Shown piece by piece: positions 26,021 to 57,992 of a DNA stretch of 64,000 nucleotides. Position 1 is the stretch's first letter; the number at the start of each line of letters is the position of its first letter. The notes under the pieces were generated by a model. That model had not been told where the DNA came from, searched no databases, and saw nothing but the letters and a program-made list of their open reading frames with translations. The DNA comes from Roseinatronobacter alkalisoli (GTDB lineage Bacteria; Pseudomonadota; Alphaproteobacteria; Rhodobacterales; Rhodobacteraceae): NCBI RefSeq assembly GCF_028745735.1, contig NZ_JAQZSM010000005.1, positions 1 through 64,000 on the forward strand, read 5' to 3'. A program made the translations under genes and the position numbers.

Positions 26021-27469
26021 TTAGGCGACCATGGCCTTGTCGCGGCCCATCGCTGCGGCGATGTCTGATCCTTGCGCCGCAAACCGCTGCACATCGTCCG
26101 AAACCTTGTCGATCAGCGCTGCGTCATGGCTGACCAAGGCGATTGACAGCCCTTCATCGCGGGCCAGATCGGCCAGCATCGTGATGACGTCGCGTTGGGT
26201 AATGGGGTCAAGGCGCGAGGTCGGCTCGTCTGCAAACAACATGCGCGGTTGTGCCAGCATCGCGCGCAGTAGGGCAAGCCGTTGCAATTCGCCACCCGAC
26301 ACTGCACCGGGCCTGCGCGCCAAAAGTGCGGGATCAAGGCGCAGGCGGGCCAGCAGGGTTTCGATCCGCCCTGCGGGGGCCCGATGAAGTCGCGCCACAT
26401 CCGTAAGGGTCTGGCCCAGACTGCGCTTGCGTGCAAAGGCCGCGACGGGATCCTGATACAGCTTCTGGCACGCTGTCGGGGGCAGGTACGGTGCGCGGAT
26501 CACCTGCCCTGCATCGGGGGGCAGCAGGCCCAGAAGCGCATCGCCAAGACTGGATTTTCCACAACCCGATGGCCCGGTGATACCAAGGATACGCCCGGTC
26601 TGCAGCGTCAGGTCAAGCCCTTCCACCAGCACCTGTCCCCGCCGGGACAGTGTCAGACCCTGGGCGCGCAGGACCGTTTCCCCGGTCCCGGCACCTGTTT
26701 TCCGTGCGGGCAAGTGTTCCGGATCGGCGGCGATCAGGTCGCGGGTATACGCGGCTTTTGGGTCGGCAAAGACCTGCTCAGTCAGACCGGTTTCGATCAC
26801 GGTCCCTTCGCGCAACACGATCAGCCGCCCGCCAATCATGCGGGCAAGTGCAAGATCATGGGTAATGACCATCAGCCCGCCGCCCTGGCCGAGTTCCCCC
26901 AGCAGCAGTGCGGCAACATCGTTGCGTCGGGCGGCATCCAGCCCCTTCGTCGGTTCATCAGCAATGACAATCGGTGCCCCGCCTGCGCGGGCGGCGGCAA
27001 TGGCCACGCGCTGCGCCATGCCACCCGACAATTCATGCGGATAGCGCGCCACGGCCGCGCCCAGCCCGAAGGCCGCCAGATCGTTTCCTGCCTGCATACG
27101 GGCTTGCGCGGGGGCAAGGCCACGGACCAGCCTGTGTGCCTCTGCCACCTGCGCGCCAGCGCGCATCAGTGGATCAAGTGACAGCCAGGGTTCCTGTGGC
27201 AAGACCGCAATCTCGCGCCCCCACAGCTTGCGGAATGCCGCCCGGTCTGCGCCTGCGCGCAGGCTGCGATTGCCCAGTCTGACCTGTCCTTCAGCGCGCA
27301 GGTTTTCCGGCAACGTGCCCATGATGGCCTGCGCCAGCAGGCTTTTGCCCGAACCCGTCTCGCCCAGAATGACCAGCGGCTCGCCCGGTTCAAGTGTGAC
27401 GGAGACAGGGTCCAGCAGTCGGTTCGTGCCGTCGAAAACCGCAATGTCGGTTGCGTGCAGAAGTGTCAT
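26021..27469 (-). CDS. Fused double ATP-binding protein of a nickel/peptide-type ABC importer
   Basis: About 482 residues from ATG 27469, which overlaps the permease stop (ATGA); the long open frame up to 27829 is antisense-frame noise inside the permease. Two complete ATPase units are fused. The first has Walker A GETGSGKS, signature LSGGMAQR and Walker B IVIADEPTKGLD. The second has [17 protein letters not shown] and LFADEPTSRLDP. In most Dpp/Nik systems these are separate D and F proteins. The second unit has an unusual VSGGE signature and lacks the usual C-terminal substrate-type extension, as does the first. It energises the two permeases at 27466-29192. Confidence 0.92.
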   Translation of the reverse strand: MTLLHATDIAVFDGTNRLLDPVSVTLEPGEPLVILGETGSGKSLLAQAIMGTLPENLRAEGQVRLGNRSLRAGADRAAFRKLWGREIAVLPQEPWLSLDPLMRAGAQVAEAHRLVRGLAPAQARMQAGNDLAAFGLGAAVARYPHELSGGMAQRVAIAAARAGGAPIVIADEPTKGLDAARRNDVAALLLGELGQGGGLMVITHDLALARMIGGRLIVLREGTVIETGLTEQVFADPKAAYTRDLIAADPEHLPARKTGAGTGETVLRAQGLTLSRRGQVLVEGLDLTLQTGRILGITGPSGCGKSSLGDALLGLLPPDAGQVIRAPYLPPTACQKLYQDPVAAFARKRSLGQTLTDVARLHRAPAGRIETLLARLRLDPALLARRPGAVSGGELQRLALLRAMLAQPRMLFADEPTSRLDPITQRDVITMLADLARDEGLSIALVSHDAALIDKVSDDVQRFAAQGSDIAAAMGRDKAMVA

Positions 27470-28266
27470 GCTTTTTGTCCTCCGGCCAGCAGGGTCAACC
27501 CCAGAAGCAGTGCAAATGTGGCAAGCACCGGGGTCAGCAGCGCCATGGGGGCTTCGCGCCAGTAGGGCAGCAGTTCCACCATCATCAGGCCCAGTTCGGG
27601 CGTGGGCGCGCGCATTCCGACACTGACAAACCCAAGTGCCGCGATGCCCATGATCGCCGTGGCCGTGCCAAAGGCGGCAGCAGTCAGCATCAGGGGGGCA
27701 ATTTCGGGCCAAAGATGCGTGCGGAACACATAGGGCCAGCGAAACCCCAGCAGCCGCGCTGCCTGCACTGCCGGGCTGGCCAGCGTGGACCGCGTGGCCG
27801 CGCGCGTCAGGCGAAAGAATTCCACCCATAAAACCAGCGACAGCCCCGCCCAGAAGCCCATGGCAGTGCCCGGCATGATGGCCAGCACGATCAGCACCAG
27901 CAACAGCCCTGGTAGTGCCATCAGCGCATCGGCAAGGATCATCAACAAGCGTTCGACCCAGCCGCCCCGCGCAGCAGCCAGCGTGCCAAGGACCAACCCG
28001 GCCGCGCCAGCCGTGACCACAGCCGCCAGCGCGATGGCAGGCGACAGGCGCAGCGCATGCGCCAGCCGGTGCCAGAGCGACCGGCCCAGATGGTCATAGC
28101 CGAAGGGGGCGCCCGAGTCCGGCCCGGCCAGCGATTTCATCAGCGACTGCGCGAAGGGATCACCGGGCACCAGTAACGGACCAACAAGCGCGAAACCCAG
28201 CATCAGTGCCAGCACCACAGCCCCGATCGCGCGACCTGGCGGCAGGGTATTGGAAAATGTCGTCAT
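27466..28266 (-). CDS. ABC importer permease (DppC/NikC type)
   Basis: A 266-residue inner-membrane protein. The N-terminal DppC-type segment reads LVPGDPFAQSLMKSLAGPDSG before GYDHLGRSLWHRL, the usual external loop followed by the D-x-x-GR tract. About five to six membrane spans follow, and AARLLGFRWPYVFRTHLWPEIAP is the docking loop. Four-base overlaps join it to the upstream permease and the downstream fused ATPase. It transports an unknown nickel-complex, peptide or metallophore; see the Zur-like site at 30810. Confidence 0.92.
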   Translation of the reverse strand: MTTFSNTLPPGRAIGAVVLALMLGFALVGPLLVPGDPFAQSLMKSLAGPDSGAPFGYDHLGRSLWHRLAHALRLSPAIALAAVVTAGAAGLVLGTLAAARGGWVERLLMILADALMALPGLLLVLIVLAIMPGTAMGFWAGLSLVLWVEFFRLTRAATRSTLASPAVQAARLLGFRWPYVFRTHLWPEIAPLMLTAAAFGTATAIMGIAALGFVSVGMRAPTPELGLMMVELLPYWREAPMALLTPVLATFALLLGLTLLAGGQKA

Positions 28267-29192
28267 CTTGCCCCCCTCGGATCGATCCGTGTGACAGCCA
28301 GATCAATCAGCGCGTTGACCAGCACAAAGCCAAGACCCAGCATCAGCGCGGTGCCTTGCACCATCGGCACGTCGCGTGCAAAGACCGCATGGACCAGCGC
28401 ATGCCCGATGCCCGGCCAACCAACGATGGATTCAATCACCACGACACCTTCAACCAGTGTGACGAATTGCAGACCCAGATAGGTCAGCAGTGGCACCGAA
28501 ACATTGCGCAGACCGTGCCGCCACAGAACCTGACGGCGCGACAGCCCTTTCCATTGGGCGAAGTGGTAGAAGGGCATCGCCGCAATGCTGGCCATGGCAT
28601 CGCGGGCAATCCGGGCATTCACCGCAGCCAGTCCCAGTGCCAGCGCCAGAGCAGGCAGGATGAAATGCCGCGCCTGTCCGTGGCCTGCCGCAGGCAGCCA
28701 GCCAAGCTGCACCGACAGCACAAGGATCAGGATCAGCGCCATCAGGAATTGCGGAATAGCCTTCAGGGCCGCGGACACAACAAGCAGCCCCCGGTCCAGC
28801 GCGCCCCCCGGCCGCAGCCCTGCAAGCACGCCCAGCGGCGGGCCGATCAGTAATGACAGGCCGACTGCGGTCAGTGCGAGCCAAAGTGATGCCCCCAGTT
28901 GATGGGTGATTTCCGCGATCACCGGCTGCCCCGATACCAGCGATACGCCGAAATCGAAGCGCAGCAGATCGCCCATCCATTGCGTGAAAGCCGGGAACCA
29001 ATGCCCCCCCAGCCCCAGTTCTGCGCGCACCGCATCGGCGGCGGCGGTATTCACATTGTCGTATCCGTAGCGCCCCGCCGCAATGCGCCATGCGGCGTCA
29101 CCCGGCAGGCTGCGCATCATGGCGAAAGTTGCCGCCCCGACAAGGACCGCCACGGTGGCGGCCTGTACCAGTCGCGAAATCAGGATATTCAT
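28263..29192 (-). CDS. ABC importer permease (DppB/NikB type)
   Basis: About 309 residues from ATG 29192, overlapping the binding-protein stop by four bases; the extended open frame to 29234 lies within that gene. The DppB hallmarks are an N-terminal membrane span, ATFAMMRSLPGDAAW, GDLLRFDFGVSLVSGQPV, and the docking loop FAQWKGLSRRQVLWRHGLRNVSVPLLTYLG in its usual place. The end ALVHAVFARDVPMVQGTALMLG is typical. It pairs with the DppC-type permease downstream. Confidence 0.92.
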   Translation of the reverse strand: MNILISRLVQAATVAVLVGAATFAMMRSLPGDAAWRIAAGRYGYDNVNTAAADAVRAELGLGGHWFPAFTQWMGDLLRFDFGVSLVSGQPVIAEITHQLGASLWLALTAVGLSLLIGPPLGVLAGLRPGGALDRGLLVVSAALKAIPQFLMALILILVLSVQLGWLPAAGHGQARHFILPALALALGLAAVNARIARDAMASIAAMPFYHFAQWKGLSRRQVLWRHGLRNVSVPLLTYLGLQFVTLVEGVVVIESIVGWPGIGHALVHAVFARDVPMVQGTALMLGLGFVLVNALIDLAVTRIDPRGAR

Positions 29193-30697
29193 TCGGTGAA
29201 CCGCAGCCTTGCCAGACCGAAATTGCGTTCCCACGGGTCAATCACCGCCCCGTCGATTCCGGCCTTGACTGCCAATGTCTGCTGATACCAGGCAATCGGG
29301 ATCACCGGCAGTTCGGTTTGCAGAATGGCGCTGACACGCGCGCGATCCGCGTCTGTCCCTTCGCCACGCGCAATGGCTTGCGCCAGTGCCACAATCTCGG
29401 GGTTATCCCAGCCCATCGCGCCCCAGTCACCGGTGGGCGCATAGTCCGACAGGATAGTACCGATCGGTTCGGGGATCAGCGCGAAGTTGCGCGCCAGAAG
29501 GCCCAGTTCCAGCGTGCCGGCCTGATGGCCCGCCGGAATTTCCGACGAGTTGGTGCTGTTGATCGTCAGTTCCACCCCGATGGTGCGAAATTGCTGTTCC
29601 AGCACAGCGGCTACAAGCGGCAATTCCGGCCGGTCCGGGTAGGTGGTCAGCGTCAGGGCAAAGCGCTGTCCGTCGCGGGCCAGAATGCCATCTGCGCCCG
29701 GTGCCCAGCCCTGTTGCGCCAGCAGCGCCTGCGCTGCGGCAACGTCATATTGCAAAGGATCCATCCCAGCATTGTGCCATGACCCGATGGCAGGCGGGAA
29801 CAATTGATCCGCCCCTTCGGGGTAACGCAGCACCGCTTGCGCAAGGCCTGCGCGATCAATGGCAAGGCTAAGCGCCTGCCGCGCTTCCGGCGTGTTCAGA
29901 AACGGATGCGCGGCGTTCACCTTCAACAGCAGCGTGCGCGGAATCGCCACCGATATTACCTGCACCGCTTCAGATTGTGACAGGCGCGTCACACTGGCTG
30001 GGTCGAGGTTGAAAACGAAATCCGCATCGCCCGATTCCGCCATCAATGCGCGTGTCTCTGCCCGGCTGACGGCGGTATAGCTTACATCCGGTACATGGGG
30101 TTGCGCGCCCCAGTAATCGGCAAAGGCTGTGGCACGTAGCGACAAGGGCGGCGTCAGATCGGTTATGCGGTAGGGGCCGGTGCCTATGACCGCCACGGCC
30201 TGCCCGTCCGGACCATAGGCGGCAGGGGCCAGAATCTGCGTCCGGCTTTCGGCCAGAAACGCAGGCAGCGCGGCGCGTGGTTCCGTCAGGGTGATGACCA
30301 CGGCATCATGGTCCGCTGTGATTGCCGCAACCGGCAACCCGCTGATGGGGCCGGGCTTAGCCCGCGCGATTTCCAGTGCATTGACTACTGCCGCAGGCGT
30401 CATCGGGCTGCCATCATGGAAACTGACATTCTCGCGCAGGGTGAATCGCCATGTCAGACCATCCTCTGATGTGTCCCATTCTGTGGCAAGACCCGGCAGC
30501 AACCGGCCCTGCGGATCTGCATCCACCAGCGTTTCAGCGATACCCATATTGGTGAAGATATGGCCGGTGGTCGAAGGGTCGGGCGACTGAATTTCAAACG
30601 GCGCGGCAACGCCTATCATGCTATCCGCAAGCGCAGGCGTGCCAAGTGACAGACCGAGCAGAGCGGCGATGAGCGGGCGTTTCAACTGTATCATCAT
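29189..30697 (-). CDS. Family 5 (nickel/peptide type) substrate-binding protein, possible metal or metallophore binder
   Basis: A 502-residue periplasmic protein with a signal peptide of about 24 residues ending TPALA. Family 5 marks are TGHIFTNMGIAETLVDADPQG, LLPGLATEWDTSEDGLTWRF, LRENVSFHDGSPMTPAAVV, GTGPYRI and QALSLAIDRAGLAQAVLR. The size and the NMGIAETLV tract resemble nickel/opine-type binding proteins (NikA/CntA group) as much as peptide-binding DppA. A zinc-regulator-type palindrome lies 113-135 bases upstream in the only promoter region of the operon. Import of a metal chelate rather than peptide is therefore favoured. The specific ligand cannot be read from sequence. Confidence 0.88.
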   Translation of the reverse strand: MMIQLKRPLIAALLGLSLGTPALADSMIGVAAPFEIQSPDPSTTGHIFTNMGIAETLVDADPQGRLLPGLATEWDTSEDGLTWRFTLRENVSFHDGSPMTPAAVVNALEIARAKPGPISGLPVAAITADHDAVVITLTEPRAALPAFLAESRTQILAPAAYGPDGQAVAVIGTGPYRITDLTPPLSLRATAFADYWGAQPHVPDVSYTAVSRAETRALMAESGDADFVFNLDPASVTRLSQSEAVQVISVAIPRTLLLKVNAAHPFLNTPEARQALSLAIDRAGLAQAVLRYPEGADQLFPPAIGSWHNAGMDPLQYDVAAAQALLAQQGWAPGADGILARDGQRFALTLTTYPDRPELPLVAAVLEQQFRTIGVELTINSTNSSEIPAGHQAGTLELGLLARNFALIPEPIGTILSDYAPTGDWGAMGWDNPEIVALAQAIARGEGTDADRARVSAILQTELPVIPIAWYQQTLAVKAGIDGAVIDPWERNFGLARLRFTE

Positions 30698-30809
30698 GAT
30701 ATCCTAAGGTCATAGCTTCGTTGCAGGTCAAAGCACCGCGTTCATGCGTGGCGGCGCCCGGTCCCACAGTTTCAGGCCGACGACATGCCGGGGATTCGGG
30801 AAGATAGTA

Positions 30810-30832
30810 GTTATGTAATATGATAACATTAC
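30810..30832. promoter_or_regulatory. Zur-box-like palindrome in the metal-importer promoter
   Basis: A 23-base imperfect palindrome starting GTTATGTAATATG and ending ATAACATTAC. By eye it agrees at 17 of 22 informative positions with the Zur consensus that has ATGTTATA and TATAACAT half-sites, and 7 of 11 base pairs are symmetric. On the minus strand it overlaps the spacer between a TTGCGT hexamer (about 30833-30838) and a TAACTA hexamer (about 30810-30815). Repressor binding here would block the promoter of the 30697-26021 operon. The rest of 30698-30958 holds no gene. Confidence 0.6.
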
Positions 30833-30958
30833 GCAAGAGGGACACAGGGCAACGTGTATAATTGCGCCGGAAATGCAGATGCCCGCTACACCCGCACATG
30901 GCGCAGAAAACCGGGCGCCGGATTTCCGGACCTTGTATGTCATGCAGTTGGAATAGAG

Positions 30959-31002
30959 AAAGACACCCGTTCACCCCATTTGGGTGCGATCATAGTGTCT
31001 TT
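30959..31002 (-). terminator. Likely terminator of the lacI-type gene
   Basis: A nested inverted repeat immediately after the regulator stop codon. The outer arms AAAGACAC and GTGTCTTT (eight pairs) enclose an inner CACCC-CATTT-GGGTG stem. On the minus strand the outer arm ends in TCTTTCTC, a short pyrimidine tract. The structure separates the regulator from the metal-importer promoter downstream. Confidence 0.5.
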
Positions 31003-31004
31003 AG

Positions 31005-32021
31005 CTAAATACTTGATCTGATAACAAGATTTGGCGCAACAAGGATGTGTTCGGGCGATTTTCGGCCTTCTATCCGCGATAGTAGTGTGCGCGCGGCGAT
31101 TTCACCCAATCTGGGCGCGTCCTGATTAATGCTTGTCAGATCGATCAGATGCATGCGGGCCGGGGGGCTGTCATCGCAGCCGATGATGGCCAGATCTGCG
31201 GGCACGCGAATGCCGCTGGTTTTCGCCAGGTTGATCATGGGGACGGCGTGCAGATCACTCCAGCAATAGAACGCGGTGGGGCGGTCGGGCGCGCGCAACA
31301 GCGTCAGCATGTCCGCCTCCATCTGCGCTGTCCGGTCCGGCAATCGTATGATGCGGCTATATTGTTCCAGCCCGGCGTTAACCATGGCATAGGTATAGCC
31401 CGCTTCGCGTTCAAGAACGACATCATGGTCACTAAGCCGCGTGTGTTGCAGGCTGGTCATCATGATATCGCGGTGGCCGCGCGCAATAAGGGCGTTGACC
31501 GCCATCTGCGCACTTTCGCGGTCGTCGGAATTGACTGTGTCATAGACCTGCGACACCGGTTCGTGGTGGCCGATGACGACCATCGGAATTTCACCCGCCG
31601 CCTGTGCCATCGGCGCAGAACCCAGATGTGGCGAAATGAGAATCAGCCCGTCCATCTGGAAATCGACCATCCGTTCGATCAACGAGGTTTCCAGCTGTTC
31701 TTCGGCTTCACCCACGCCGATCATGGTCTTGTAGTTCAGCGCCCGGAGTGTGGCGTCGATACCCGCAATCACATCCGACAGAAACGGGTTTGCCATCTCG
31801 ACCAGCAGAATGCCGACTGTTCTGGTTTTGCCGCGCATTCCACGGGCTGCCATATTGGGGCGATAGCCCAGAGTTTCGATTGATTTAAGAACCTTGGCGC
31901 GCAATGCGTCACTGACGCCGTAAGCATCGCGCAGCACTTTTGACACGGCTGCGACAGAAACGCCTGCGTCATCCGCGACAGTGCGGATTGTGACTTTGGT
32001 CTTGGGTGTTTGCGTCGGCAT
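31005..32021 (-). CDS. LacI-family transcriptional regulator of the rhamnoside unit
   Basis: About 338 residues from ATG 32021; the upstream open frame to 32324 is noise that would cross the promoter. The LacI helix-turn-helix is TIRTVADDAGVSVAAVSKVLRDAYGVSDAL at residues about 11-40, with the hinge ETLGYRPNMAARGMRG. A periplasmic-binding-protein-like sugar domain follows (TVGILLVEMANPFLSDVIAGIDATLRALNYK, GLILISPHLG, FYCWSDLHAVPMINLAKTSG, IIGCDDSPPARMHLIDLTSINQD in short blocks). It is divergent from the alpha-L-rhamnosidase gene, with a perfect palindrome on the shared promoter, so it probably represses the rhamnosidase and CUT1 genes until the sugar is present. Confidence 0.92.
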   Translation of the reverse strand: MPTQTPKTKVTIRTVADDAGVSVAAVSKVLRDAYGVSDALRAKVLKSIETLGYRPNMAARGMRGKTRTVGILLVEMANPFLSDVIAGIDATLRALNYKTMIGVGEAEEQLETSLIERMVDFQMDGLILISPHLGSAPMAQAAGEIPMVVIGHHEPVSQVYDTVNSDDRESAQMAVNALIARGHRDIMMTSLQHTRLSDHDVVLEREAGYTYAMVNAGLEQYSRIIRLPDRTAQMEADMLTLLRAPDRPTAFYCWSDLHAVPMINLAKTSGIRVPADLAIIGCDDSPPARMHLIDLTSINQDAPRLGEIAARTLLSRIEGRKSPEHILVAPNLVIRSSI

Positions 32022-32085
32022 TTCATGGCGCTCCCTCGTTGCTGAACAAAAATACAGAAAAACGCTTGCCAGACAATCCGTTTTG

Positions 32086-45778: not shown

Positions 45779-46755
45779 CTGCGCTTCTGACCCTTGAGAA
45801 TGTGTCCAAACGGTTTTCCAAGCCGCAGGACATTGCCGTGCGGCTGGCGCGTCGGCTTGGGGCGAACATCCCCAATGAAACCGTGCATGCGGTGGATGAC
45901 GTGACGCTTTCGGTGAATGCGGGCGAAGTGGTGGGTTTGGTGGGCGAATCCGGCTGCGGCAAGTCCACCCTTGGGCGGGTTGCGGCGGGCATCCATGCGC
46001 CCAGCGACGGGCGGCTTTTGTGGAAGGGCGAACAGGCCACCGGCACGCGCGAAGCACGGCTGAAAGTGCAGATGGTGTTTCAGGATCCCATGTCCTCGCT
46101 CAACCCGCGGCACAGGGTGGACCGGATCATCACTGAAGCACCGCGTTTCCATGGCCAGATCACGGCACGCGAAGCGGATAGTTTTGCCGCCGCATTGTTG
46201 GAAAAAGTCGGGCTGGACCCGAATTTCCGCGCCCGCTATCCGCATCAGTTTTCCGGCGGTCAGCGTCAGCGCATTGCGATTGCGCGGGCACTGGCGGTGA
46301 AGCCGGAAATCATTGTGGCTGATGAATCCGTGTCAGCGCTGGATGTGTCGGTGCAGGCGCAGGTGCTGAACCTGTTCATGGACCTGCGCAGCGAACTGGG
46401 GCTGGCATATCTGTTCATCAGCCATGATCTGGGCGTGGTTGAACATATCGCGGACCGGGTTGTCATCATGTATCTGGGCCGCGTCGTGGAAGAGGCCCGC
46501 ACAGAAGATTTGTTTGCCAATCCGCTGCACCCCTATGCGCAGGCCCTTCTGAATGAAGTGCCCCGCCTGACGACCGGCAAGCGCCGGTTTCAGCCGATCA
46601 AGGGGGAAATCCCTTCACCACTCAACCCGCCAACGGGTTGCCATTTTCACCCTCGTTGCCCCTTGGCCGACGGGGAATGCCGTGCCCTGCGCCCTGCGCT
46701 ACGTCAGGTCGCACCGGGGCGCACAGTTGCCTGTCACAAAGTGACAGGCCCATAA
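45775..46755 (+). CDS. Peptide-type ABC importer ATP-binding protein (DppF type)
   Basis: A 326-residue ATPase: Walker [10 protein letters not shown] near 59-67, signature [15 protein letters not shown] and Walker B IIVADESVSALDVS. The P of the common DEP motif is S, which is frequent in this subgroup and not inactivating. The C-terminal cysteine cluster is CHFHPRCPLADGECRALRP. There is an unusual insert VRLARRLGANIPNETVHA before the Walker A domain. It overlaps the DppD gene by four bases and is followed after 17 bases by the binding protein. Confidence 0.93.
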   Translation: MTALLTLENVSKRFSKPQDIAVRLARRLGANIPNETVHAVDDVTLSVNAGEVVGLVGESGCGKSTLGRVAAGIHAPSDGRLLWKGEQATGTREARLKVQMVFQDPMSSLNPRHRVDRIITEAPRFHGQITAREADSFAAALLEKVGLDPNFRARYPHQFSGGQRQRIAIARALAVKPEIIVADESVSALDVSVQAQVLNLFMDLRSELGLAYLFISHDLGVVEHIADRVVIMYLGRVVEEARTEDLFANPLHPYAQALLNEVPRLTTGKRRFQPIKGEIPSPLNPPTGCHFHPRCPLADGECRALRPALRQVAPGRTVACHKVTGP

Positions 46756-46772
46756 CAGGGAGATACGAGACC

Positions 46773-48326
46773 ATGACAAAACTATCGCAATACTTGGGTG
46801 CAACGGCGCTGGTCGCCCTTATGGCTGGTACTGCCGGGGCGCAAAGCATTACCGCAGGGCTTGCTGCTGCGCCATCCTCGATGGACCCGCATTTCGCCAC
46901 CACGGGCCAGAACCAGCAGCTTGCTGCCATCCTTTATGACCGGTTGATCCATATCGGCCCCGATGGCAATTTTGTCCCCGGTCTGGCAACGGAATGGAGC
47001 GTGTCGGACGACCGCCTGACCTGGACCTTCACACTGCGCGAAGGCGTTACCTTCCATGATGGCAGCCCGTTCACGGCGGCAGATGCGGTGTTCACATTCG
47101 AACGCATCCCCGAAGTGCCCAACAGCCCCGCGCCCTTCACCCAGCGCCTTGCCGCGATTGAAAGTGCTGAAGCTGTGGATGACCACACGCTGGTCATTAC
47201 CACATCGGCACCGGCACCGGGCCTGCCCACGGACCTGTCCACCATCTATATCGTGTCGCAAAACGTTGGCGACGCGGAAAGTGCCGATTTCGACCGTGGC
47301 ACGGCGGCTATCGGCACCGGGCCTTACCGTCAGGTCAGCTATAGCCCCGGCGAAAACCTGATGATCGAACGCAATCCGGATTATTGGGGCGATGCGCCGG
47401 ATTTTGAGGATGTCACGATCCGCTTTCTGGAGAATTCGGCCAGCCGCGTGGCGTCCTTGCAGGCGGGCGAGGTGGATTTCATCGATGCAGTGCCGCCCAA
47501 TGATCTGGACCGCCTGCGCGGGATGGATGCGGTGACTGTGGTGGCGGCCCCTTCGGCGCGGATGCTGTATATGGGCGTTGATCAGATGGAAGACACCACC
47601 ATCCGGATTGACCCGTCGGTTGGCAACCCGTTCCGCGACCAGCGCGTGCGCGAGGCGCTGAGTCTTGCAATTAACCGAGAAGCCATCATCGACCGTATTC
47701 AGTTCAATTCCGGTGCGCCTGCCAACCAGTTCGCGCCAGAAGGTATCTTTGGCCATAACCCCGACATTCCACAGCCCGAATATAACCCGGAACGCGCCCG
47801 CGAGTTGCTGGAGGAAGCAGGCTATGGTGATGGCTGGTCGATGACCATTCACGGCCCCGCCGGGCGCTATGTGAACGACACCGATGTGTTGCTGGCCGTC
47901 GGGCAGATGTGGTCTCAGATCGGCCTTGATATCGAGGTAGAGAATGTGCCCGCCAATGTCTATTTCGGGCAGGCGACAGCGCGCGAATTCTCGGCCTTCA
48001 TGGTTGCCTTCGGGATTACTACAGGCGAAAGCAGCCTTGCATTGCGCAATGTGCTGGGAACCGCGGACGAGGAACGCGGCTGGGGCTCCAACAACCGTTT
48101 CCGCTATTCCAGCGAGGCATTTGATGACGCCCTTGCCCGCGCGTTTGACGCATTCGAGGATGATGAACGCGAAGCCGCCCTGCAGGAAGCCGCCGCCATA
48201 GCAGCCGAAGATGTGGCGGTCATCCCGCTTTACTGGGAAGGGAACAACTGGGCCGTGCGCGGAGAGATAGAGTTCACACCCAGCCCTGATGGCCGTTCGC
48301 TGATCACCAATATCAGCCAGCGGTAA
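46773..48326 (+). CDS. Family 5 (peptide type) ABC substrate-binding protein
   Basis: About 517 residues from ATG 46773 with AGGGAG upstream; the extension from 46638 overlaps the ATPase. The signal peptide is about residues 1-24, cleaved after TAGAQ or earlier. Family marks are SMDPHFATTGQNQQLAAILYD, LREGVTFHDGSPFTAADAVFTFER, GTGPYRQVSYSPGENLMIERNPDYWG in separate blocks, and VREALSLAINREAI. Despite the peptide-family fold, its neighbour is an esterase-like hydrolase, so the ligand may be an ester, acyl peptide or amide. Confidence 0.93.
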   Translation: MTKLSQYLGATALVALMAGTAGAQSITAGLAAAPSSMDPHFATTGQNQQLAAILYDRLIHIGPDGNFVPGLATEWSVSDDRLTWTFTLREGVTFHDGSPFTAADAVFTFERIPEVPNSPAPFTQRLAAIESAEAVDDHTLVITTSAPAPGLPTDLSTIYIVSQNVGDAESADFDRGTAAIGTGPYRQVSYSPGENLMIERNPDYWGDAPDFEDVTIRFLENSASRVASLQAGEVDFIDAVPPNDLDRLRGMDAVTVVAAPSARMLYMGVDQMEDTTIRIDPSVGNPFRDQRVREALSLAINREAIIDRIQFNSGAPANQFAPEGIFGHNPDIPQPEYNPERARELLEEAGYGDGWSMTIHGPAGRYVNDTDVLLAVGQMWSQIGLDIEVENVPANVYFGQATAREFSAFMVAFGITTGESSLALRNVLGTADEERGWGSNNRFRYSSEAFDDALARAFDAFEDDEREAALQEAAAIAAEDVAVIPLYWEGNNWAVRGEIEFTPSPDGRSLITNISQR

Positions 48327-56161: not shown

Positions 56162-56471
56162 AAACATGCTGGAACTGCCTAATTTTCCAGTTTTTCCGAG
56201 AGTTTTCTGTTGAATCCTGCCTATTCATCATTGTCTGGACATTAAGCTTTATAAAAAAAATATATAAAAATAATTAGTTACATGTATTTTATGGTGGAGT
56301 GCTGAGCACACGAAGGGTTGATCATATGGCTGCAATAAATTTCATCTGTAATATGATTATTAGTTGCTCTATATCCAAATCTCGCTTAGCCTGACCGAAG
56401 AACGGCAATGGTCGGAACGGTGTTTGATGCCCTGGGGGAGGGCGTCGCCGATACCGGCAGGGGGGATACCA
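56162..56471. other. Very AT-rich promoter region before the binding-protein gene
   Basis: No gene found in 310 bases. The tract at about 56250-56276 is almost pure A and T and probably bent. Several -35/-10 like pairs are possible, so no single promoter is assigned. The GGGGG run at 56460-56465 may act as the ribosome binding site of the gene at 56472. Its AT content contrasts sharply with the flanking genes and may be a transferred or regulatory segment. Confidence 0.4.
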
Positions 56472-57992
56472 ATGACAGCTATGGCAAAGGTCGTGACGGC
56501 GGGGGCATTGCTATTGTCGGCATCAGGCAATGCGCTGTTTGCGCAAGCCACGCCGGATAATTTCAGTGTCGCGGTAGCGGAAGAACCGGACACGCTGGAC
56601 ATGACGTCCACCGCGCATGCGCCGGGTGCGCGCGTTAGTCTGGAAAACATCACCGAAGGATTGTGGAGCACGGCGACGGATGGCGCGCTGACCTCAACTG
56701 TCGCTGATTGGGAAATATCCGATGACGGGCTGGAAATCGTGTTTCGTATCCGTGACGGCATAACATTCCATTCCGGCGACCCGCTGACCGCAGAGGATGT
56801 CTTGTTCAGCCACAATCGCATGCTGGAAAATGCCCCACAATACGCCCGCCGGGCGCGCGCGCTGGACGCGGTGGATGTCGTGGACGAACGTACCGTCAGG
56901 TTCACATTCCATACGCCGGACGCTGGCATGATGCCCTCGCGCAGTCTGTCGATTGTGTCAAAAGCCTATTTCGACCGCGTCGGTGAAACCCAGTTCATGC
57001 GCCACCCTGTCGGCACCGGACCATATGAATTCGTGTCCTACACGCCCGGCACCCAATTGGTTCTGAAGCGATATGACAATTACCATGGTGATCTGCCGCA
57101 GGTTGAGCACGCAACCCTGCGCTATGTGCGCGAAGCGGGCACCCGGCTGGCGCAGTTGCAGGCCGGTGAGGTGGGCATGGTGATGGATATTCCCTATCCC
57201 GATGTACCCAGACTGGAAGCGGACGGGTTCAGGATGGAATATCTGGCGGCACATCCGACCATCGCGATTCAGTTCCATAACCTGAACCCGGATGTGCCGT
57301 GGTATGATGTCCGTGTCCGCAAGGCGATGGCCCATGCCGTGGACCGGCAGTCCATCATCGACGGCTTGCTTGCCGGGGTTCCGGAAGTGACAGCAACCGT
57401 GGCAGAGGGGGAACTGGGCCATGACCCGACGATCACGCCCTATGCCTATGACCCGGACCGCGCGCGCGAACTGTTGGCGGAGGCCGGGTATCCGGACGGG
57501 TTCGATCTGCCGCTTGATATCTGGGGTGGTGGATTCGCTGGGCTGCGCGAAACGGCTGAGGCCGCATCGCTGTATCTGCGTGAACTGGGCATCAATGTAG
57601 AGGTCCAGACACTGGATGCCGCGCAGTTCCTGGGCAAGATCCGTAATGTTTCCGGTGATCCGGAAGGCGTGTATGTTGGTATCAGTGCCTTGCCCTATGC
57701 CAATCAGTCCGACCCGATAGAGGCGCTGAACGTGGCCTATACATCGCGTTCTCCCTTCACGCCGTTTCGGGATGACCGGCTGGACCAGTATATCGACGAA
57801 GCCAACGCGCTGCTTGATCCCGACGCCCGAGGGGAGGTTCTGAAGAAGGCCTTTGGTCTGATGCATGAAGAAGCAGCCGTGATCCCGCTTTGGAATTTTG
57901 TCGCGGTCTACGCCATGGACAGCGGCGTCAGATTCACCCCGACCGAGAAGTTCTTTCCAGTGGTGATGCTCAAGGATGTCAGCTTCGAATGA
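56472..57992 (+). CDS. Family 5 (peptide type) ABC substrate-binding protein
   Basis: About 506 residues from ATG 56472. The signal peptide is MTAMAKVVTAGALLLSAS and extends to about residue 24 (ALFAQ). Family marks are EEPDTLDMTSTAHAPGARVS, RIRDGITFHSGDPLTAEDVLFSHNRML, GTGPYEFVSYTPGTQLVLKRYDNYHG in blocks, and VRKAMAHAVDRQSIIDGLLAG. It delivers substrate to the permeases at 60186 and 61089. Because the other genes are a monooxygenase, a DUF3237 protein and a GMC oxidoreductase, the ligand may be a cyclic alcohol, aromatic glycoside or terpenoid rather than a peptide. Confidence 0.93.
   Translation: MTAMAKVVTAGALLLSASGNALFAQATPDNFSVAVAEEPDTLDMTSTAHAPGARVSLENITEGLWSTATDGALTSTVADWEISDDGLEIVFRIRDGITFHSGDPLTAEDVLFSHNRMLENAPQYARRARALDAVDVVDERTVRFTFHTPDAGMMPSRSLSIVSKAYFDRVGETQFMRHPVGTGPYEFVSYTPGTQLVLKRYDNYHGDLPQVEHATLRYVREAGTRLAQLQAGEVGMVMDIPYPDVPRLEADGFRMEYLAAHPTIAIQFHNLNPDVPWYDVRVRKAMAHAVDRQSIIDGLLAGVPEVTATVAEGELGHDPTITPYAYDPDRARELLAEAGYPDGFDLPLDIWGGGFAGLRETAEAASLYLRELGINVEVQTLDAAQFLGKIRNVSGDPEGVYVGISALPYANQSDPIEALNVAYTSRSPFTPFRDDRLDQYIDEANALLDPDARGEVLKKAFGLMHEEAAVIPLWNFVAVYAMDSGVRFTPTEKFFPVVMLKDVSFE

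Follow-up and report, generated by a model that had tools for sequence, protein, structure and literature searches.

The stretch of DNA analysed here, referred to as the window, comprises 64,000 nucleotides of Roseinatronobacter alkalisoli (contig NZ_JAQZSM010000005.1, positions 1 to 64,000; contig C76 among the 130 contigs of the 4.84 Mb genome). It carries an operon for a family 5 (cluster C) ATP-binding cassette (ABC) importer, preceded by a palindrome similar to the binding site of the zinc regulator Zur (Zur box). Control of the importer by Zur, predicted from the sequence, was well supported by the score of the site, its conservation in relatives, and the RNA sequencing (RNA-seq) and electrophoretic mobility shift assay (EMSA) published for an ortholog, which provides a direct experimental precedent (PMC5387054). 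It would be control of a known kind.

Importer operon and Zur box

The four importer genes were all located on the minus strand. The periplasmic binding protein (29189-30697; SBP_bac_5, 228.5 bits) had a signal peptide by eye. It was followed by an ABC permease of the NikB/DppB type (28263-29234; BPD_transp_1, 118.1 bits; Opp2B, 254.9 bits, below the cut-off of 350), a second permease of the NikC/DppC type (27466-28266; BPD_transp_1, 63.1 bits; Opp2C, 139 bits, below the cut-off of 300), and a fused double ATPase of the NikD-NikE/YejF/GsiA type with 482 amino acids (26021-27469), in which ABC_tran matched two stretches. The ATPase possessed two nucleotide-binding domains, with the Walker A motifs GETGSGKS and GPSGCGKS and the signatures LSGGM and VSGGE. 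The listed start of the first permease was GTG; judged by eye, an ATG overlapping the end of the binding protein gene was likelier. The next gene upstream of the importer was an unrelated LacI-type gene (31005-32039).

The Zur box was a 23-base palindrome at 30810-30832 (minus strand, reading GTAATGTTATCATATTACATAAC), 112 bases before the start codon of the binding protein and inside the 307-base gap between this gene and the stop of the LacI-type gene. Eight of its 11 pairs were symmetrical when counted by hand. On re-counting, 17 of 22 specified positions were equal to the gammaproteobacterial Zur consensus, the same number as in the preliminary description. For scoring, a symmetrical Zur matrix of 21 positions was trained on sequences preceding zur in 29 relatives from the same family; the training loci were the best 30 matches (283 of 295 family genomes matched), with the window's own genome left out. 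The box scored 25.7 bits, and the best sites in the 29 training regions scored 17.5-31.6 bits. In the comparison set beforehand with the genuine znu promoters of the same genome, the own znu/zur sites reached 23.6 and 17.7 bits against 25.7 bits for the importer box. The second-best independent position in the 64 kb scored 14.3 bits, 11 bits under the box. In 150 simulated windows of 64 kb (9.6 million bases; first-order Markov, with the dinucleotide make-up of the window), 20 bits were never reached, and 15 bits were reached at 12 positions.

A scan of the whole genome with the pattern RTWATGTWATNNTATWACATWAY gave 0-1 mismatches at 30810-30832 only. Two more sites had 3 mismatches; these mean nothing, because the backwards-read pattern gave an equal total (4 and 4). 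For the core TGTTATNNNATAACA, four exact sites and six sites with one mismatch were found, the importer box being one of these six. When up to two mismatches were allowed, the core matched 40 times per strand compared with 35 times for the backwards-read pattern, so that the core alone was unspecific.

A preliminary description of this locus had claimed a complete family 5 importer with a fused double ATPase and a palindrome resembling a Zur box. The complete genes at 26021-30697 and the score of the box were in agreement with both. It had also let the box overlap the likely promoter, which was not confirmed: a sigma-70 consensus scan of 30600-31100 gave one site, inside a gene, and no promoter-like site at the box, where a promoter can be drawn by eye only.

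Conservation in relatives and the published ortholog

Among the 295 family genomes, nine copies of the binding protein in eight genomes formed one group, consisting of the own copy and others at 47-70% identity. Beyond this group, the next among the matches listed had E-values no better than 1e-42 and were 26-37% identical. An upstream Zur site of at least 13 bits accompanied five of the nine copies, namely those of the window, L045 (25.3 bits at -230), L048 (20.5 bits at -120), L050 (32.7 bits at -81) and L044. In the last, which is the same record as L111, the site (21.7 bits) lay at -2626 with a COG0523 reading frame in between.

Conservation was also determined in a named collection, the best 80 of at least 392 confirmed relatives, which are partly the same records as the 295-genome sample. 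The permease and ATPase clusters were present in 77-80 of the 80. A Zur site of at least 17 bits was found upstream in 60 relatives, within 420 bases of the gene in 48 and within 4 kb in 12 more; the downstream stretches of the same 80 loci, up to 4 kb long, contained none. At a threshold of 15 bits, 54 of 80 upstream regions had a site, compared with none of 234 control windows of promoter length, the control stretches being coding and so probably less AT-rich than promoters. Site, score, gene set and conservation were computed here. The 60 relatives, from alpha- and gammaproteobacteria, suggest that the Zur-controlled cluster C importer is not peculiar to one strain. It is of a little-studied kind already known, and the point added here is the breadth of the conservation of the Zur site. 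As the arrangement is apparently not one strain's peculiarity, the question of the ligand is worth a bench test. The copy of Thalassococcus profundi (L127, 6001-7434) had one in-frame stop, a sign of a broken gene or a sequencing error.

The binding protein was 62% identical to the copy of Paracoccus denitrificans DSM 413 (L133). In that locus, GTAATATAATAACAT preceded the start of the binding protein gene by 26-40 bases, and GTAACGTAATAACAT preceded COG0523 by 19-33 bases. Table 7 of PMC5387054 gives the same motifs at the same positions for pden1341 and pden1338. Because of this exact match of motifs and positions, L133 was taken as the probable pden1338-1344 locus. According to Table 1 of that paper, pden1341-1344 were up 16, 13, 12.6 and 14.8-fold without zinc in RNA-seq; with the chelator N,N,N',N'-tetrakis(2-pyridylmethyl)ethylenediamine (TPEN), the paper gives 8.2, 7.7, 7.9 and 9.0-fold. 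It also reports binding of Zur to the pden1341 promoter in vitro (EMSA). The zinc response and the in vitro binding of Zur were thus shown by others for the ortholog. For a cluster C importer, direct control by Zur is 'somewhat unusual' in the words of PMC5387054, which leaves the specificity open. Among the titles and abstract starts listed from the open-access literature, none beyond this paper named the importer.

The pden1338-1344 locus of P. denitrificans PD1222 likewise encodes a binding protein together with two permeases and has one ATPase gene, and a Zur box precedes the gene of the binding protein. There, the importer shares an operon with COG0523 and a pair of small genes, which come before it and are DUF1826- and DUF6525-like in L133 by clustering. 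The window importer differs in that it stands alone, without COG0523, DUF1826 and DUF6525 in the same operon, and a COG0523 gene with its own Zur box is located on contig C87; COG0523 was near the importer in only 20 of the 80 relatives. The Zur-regulated c06450 of Sinorhizobium fredii was rejected as a counterpart, since it is another kind of protein, COG5266, according to PMC7029138.

Zinc regulon and gene neighbourhood

The genome-wide scoring with the matrix covered the 10 sites that matched the core TGTTATNNNATAACA exactly or with one mismatch. Sites of at least 21 bits preceded zur/znuA (C54), an AztD-like gene (C37), a COG0523 GTPase (C87), hisI (C42), a fused gene resembling major facilitator superfamily (MFS) and spermidine synthase proteins (C43), and the importer operon of the window. 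One site with the exact core scored only 17.0 bits (C98). The candidate Zur was a Fur-family protein divergent from znuA, with Zur PRK11639 as the best NCBIfam match (110.5 bits, below the cut-off of 167). In the own ZnuA (L008, 1435-2751), the HDH-rich repeat stretch was very long, exceeding the usual length of the histidine-rich loop in this protein. The AztD-like zinc metallochaperone (C37:83589; L090/L011; family match of 361.5 bits, below the cut-off of 400) had a Zur site of 28.2 bits, and aztABC was not seen by eye near it among the open reading frames of at least 180 amino acids in a 9 kb stretch. The Zur-like site just before the fused MFS/spermidine-synthase-like gene (C43:333483; L095, 1501-3015) scored 21.5 bits, which makes this gene an unexpected candidate for zinc control. 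For hisI, encoding phosphoribosyl-AMP cyclohydrolase (C42:66181; L094, 1501-2011), a 25.1-bit site stood immediately before the gene, which is perhaps a zinc-starvation copy. HisI paralogs and COG0523 are described as companions in Zur regulons in PMC2770081.

The neighbours of the importer in the 80 loci were named by Pfam for nine cluster representatives and by eye for the others, covering clusters in at least four loci. The recurrent ones were COG0523 (20 loci), DUF6525 (18), DUF1826 (14), ZrgA (9), ABC-3 permease (5), Zur (5, by eye) and ZnuA (4). At least one of six zinc-linked kinds (COG0523, DUF1826, ZrgA, ZnuA, ABC-3 permease and Zur) occurred within about 6 kb in 26 of the 80 loci, and a zinc-linked gene or a strong Zur box in 67. 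Four of nine distinct neighbour proteins, picked by eye from 62 large open reading frames, were TonB-dependent receptors by Pfam (L104, L107, L131 and L138). A search for receptors by sequence motif came out blank and missed even these four, and was worthless. The TonB-dependent receptor was rejected as a fixed partner, as a shared position was confined to the two loci from Rhodovulum, L104 and L131.

Another clade of family 5 proteins (L052-L058, about 30-33% identity) was set apart from the ortholog clade, yet L052, L053 and L055 were included in alignment A2 for the structure. Its members lay behind COG0523 operons or Zur boxes, with COG0523-containing operons in five loci (L052, L054, L055, L057 and L058) and single Zur boxes in L053 and L056. 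An EamA-like transporter gene (by eye) then followed in L052, L053 and L056, and the ATPase genes were separate where read.

Ligand and function of the importer

The binding protein was below both NikA models (153.1 bits, cut-off 393; 204.7 bits, cut-off 600) and far below the CntA model (116.8 bits, cut-off 800). Its AlphaFold model (predicted local distance difference test score, pLDDT, 91.6) had the NikA/DppA fold, and the nearest solved folds were NikA 2noo (template modelling, TM, score 0.85) and 3t66 from B. halodurans. His307, His390, Arg355, Glu357, Asp423 and a GDWGAMxW loop were nearly invariant in the group. Compared with NikABCDE, which is under nickel control, the importer has in common a family 5 binding protein of the same fold, two permeases and two ATPase domains, but the binding protein lies below the NikA cut-offs and lacks His416, the ATPases are fused, and a Zur box is present. 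The staphylopine importer CntABCDF belongs to the same transporter class and performs zinc-responsive uptake of a metal chelate. It differs from the window importer, whose binding protein is far under the CntA cut-off and for which no opine synthesis genes were found, and CntD and CntF are separate ATPase genes. The GsiA/YejF importers also possess a two-domain ATPase; the window ATPase scored 217.1 bits for YejF and 211.6 bits for GsiA, below the cut-offs of 834 and 1077, and the gene neighbours of that type differ from those of the window importer.

The preferred explanation, with a probability of roughly 0.72, is a Zur-repressed cluster C importer orthologous to pden1341-1344 that imports zinc held by a small chelator. 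With enough zinc, zinc-loaded Zur would sit on the box at 30810-30832 and block transcription. Under zinc starvation, Zur would leave the box, and the importer would be made along with ZnuA, AztD and the COG0523 GTPase. In the periplasm, a small ligand would then be captured by the binding protein and carried across the inner membrane by the two permeases, with the fused double ATPase powering the transport step. The ligand is most likely zinc on a small chelator (an amino acid, a peptide or a metallophore-like molecule) that ZnuA could not use. The most likely function is the import, in cells starved of zinc, of a zinc chelate or of a nutrient that spares zinc, and a zinc chelate is the best guess for the ligand because of the regulation and the gene company. 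We infer repression in R. alkalisoli, the ligand and the benefit to the cell. If the ligand is a zinc chelate, the importer would be an extra zinc route beside ZnuABC and AztABCD.

Several observations weigh against this explanation. In four of the nine copies (L046, L047, L049 and L051), the fetched stretch contained no site of at least 13 bits, L051 having only 313 upstream bases. The best 80 relatives included many close strains, and the counts are not independent trials. Twenty of them lacked a 17-bit site; nine of these had 13-17 bits near the gene and 11 had less than 13, although L109, L110 and L113 among the 11 had a 14-17-bit site further upstream. Three other sites of 23.0-23.7 bits in the genome were without an evident zinc gene: the first was within a coding gene (C2), the second shortly after a gene resembling a lytic transglycosylase (C40) and the third ahead of a gene resembling a sugar-binding protein (C87:11609), the genes being named by eye. 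A high matrix score alone is therefore no proof of function. His416 of NikA is described as essential for metal binding (title of 3qim), and its loop aligned to SDYAPTGDWGAMGW, which had no histidine in the window protein or in the other eight members of alignment A1; the nearest histidine of the window protein was His390, about 30 residues off. Finally, no measured ligand for any member of the group was found in the searches.

An Rrf2-type regulator of one cluster was located up to 3 kb upstream of the importer in four of the 80 relatives (L112, L113, L119 and L125), all belonging to the 20 without a strong Zur box. It indicates that control can change, possibly from Zur to Rrf2. Rrf2-like genes (by eye) also stood before COG0523 operons of the clade at about 30% identity (L052, L054, L057 and L058).

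A wider version of the preferred explanation is tentative, with the odds somewhat against it: the importer may represent a widespread, undescribed route for zinc on small chelators not made by the cell. The clade of binding proteins would be distinct from NikA and CntA, marked by the GDWGAMxW loop, which is nearly invariant, and by histidines of its own (His307 and His390), and would be repressed by Zur across alpha- and gammaproteobacteria (Rhodobacteraceae, Rhizobiaceae, Erwinia, Pantoea, Cobetia and Marinobacterium).

The main competitor, which we regard as unlikely, keeps the control by Zur and differs in the ligand, which would be peptides, amino acids (e.g., histidine or cysteine) or nickel/cobalt aiding life at low zinc. 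Structural neighbours in the PDB, among them NikA, DppA, AapF and opine binders, had similar scores, the missing counterpart of NikA His416 points in the same direction, and the authors of PMC5387054 left the specificity open. Against it stands the linkage to zinc uptake genes (znuA, zrgA and COG0523) found in some of the relatives (26 of 80).

An importer for opine-type metallophores of the staphylopine/pseudopaline class is improbable. CntA was among the solved relatives (5yh8, profile E-value of 1.2e-50), and zinc control of opine-type metallophore uptake is known. Family membership was rejected by the score of 116.8 bits against the CntA cut-off of 800. PF03059 (nicotianamine synthase) had no match in the genome, nor had PF10100 (staphylopine dehydrogenase), which also matched none of 14 control genomes and cannot show absence. 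A self-made metallophore of the staphylopine/nicotianamine type thus had no support, the PF10100 search being without a working control. Inspection of the annotated recurrent neighbours (clusters in at least four of the 80 loci) revealed no gene for metallophore synthesis. Own synthesis genes are not required, because the metallophore could be foreign, and uptake of a chelate made by other organisms is possible. The preliminary description had proposed a metallophore importer of the Cnt kind with Cnt/Zrg as the precedent. Its Zur-controlled family 5 importer stood, on the matrix score, the conservation and the RNA-seq and EMSA for the ortholog in PMC5387054, whereas the Cnt kind was not specifically supported by the CntA and NikA scores. 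The closest published precedent is pden1341-1344, and ZrgA is a different zinc uptake protein, with its gene near the importer in nine of the 80 relatives.

That the palindrome is a chance match or the site of another regulator is very improbable, since the blank sigma-70 scan at the box, the three genome sites of 23-23.7 bits and the Rrf2-type regulator in four of the 20 relatives that lack a strong box are opposed by the absence of any position of at least 20 bits in the simulation, the sites in 60 of 80 relatives and the EMSA for the ortholog promoter (PMC5387054).

The window also encodes two further family 5 binding proteins on the plus strand, at 46638-48326, with 34% identity to that of the importer, and at 56364-57992. 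A weak Zur-like position of 14.1 bits was located at 56344, 20 bases before the listed start of the latter gene.

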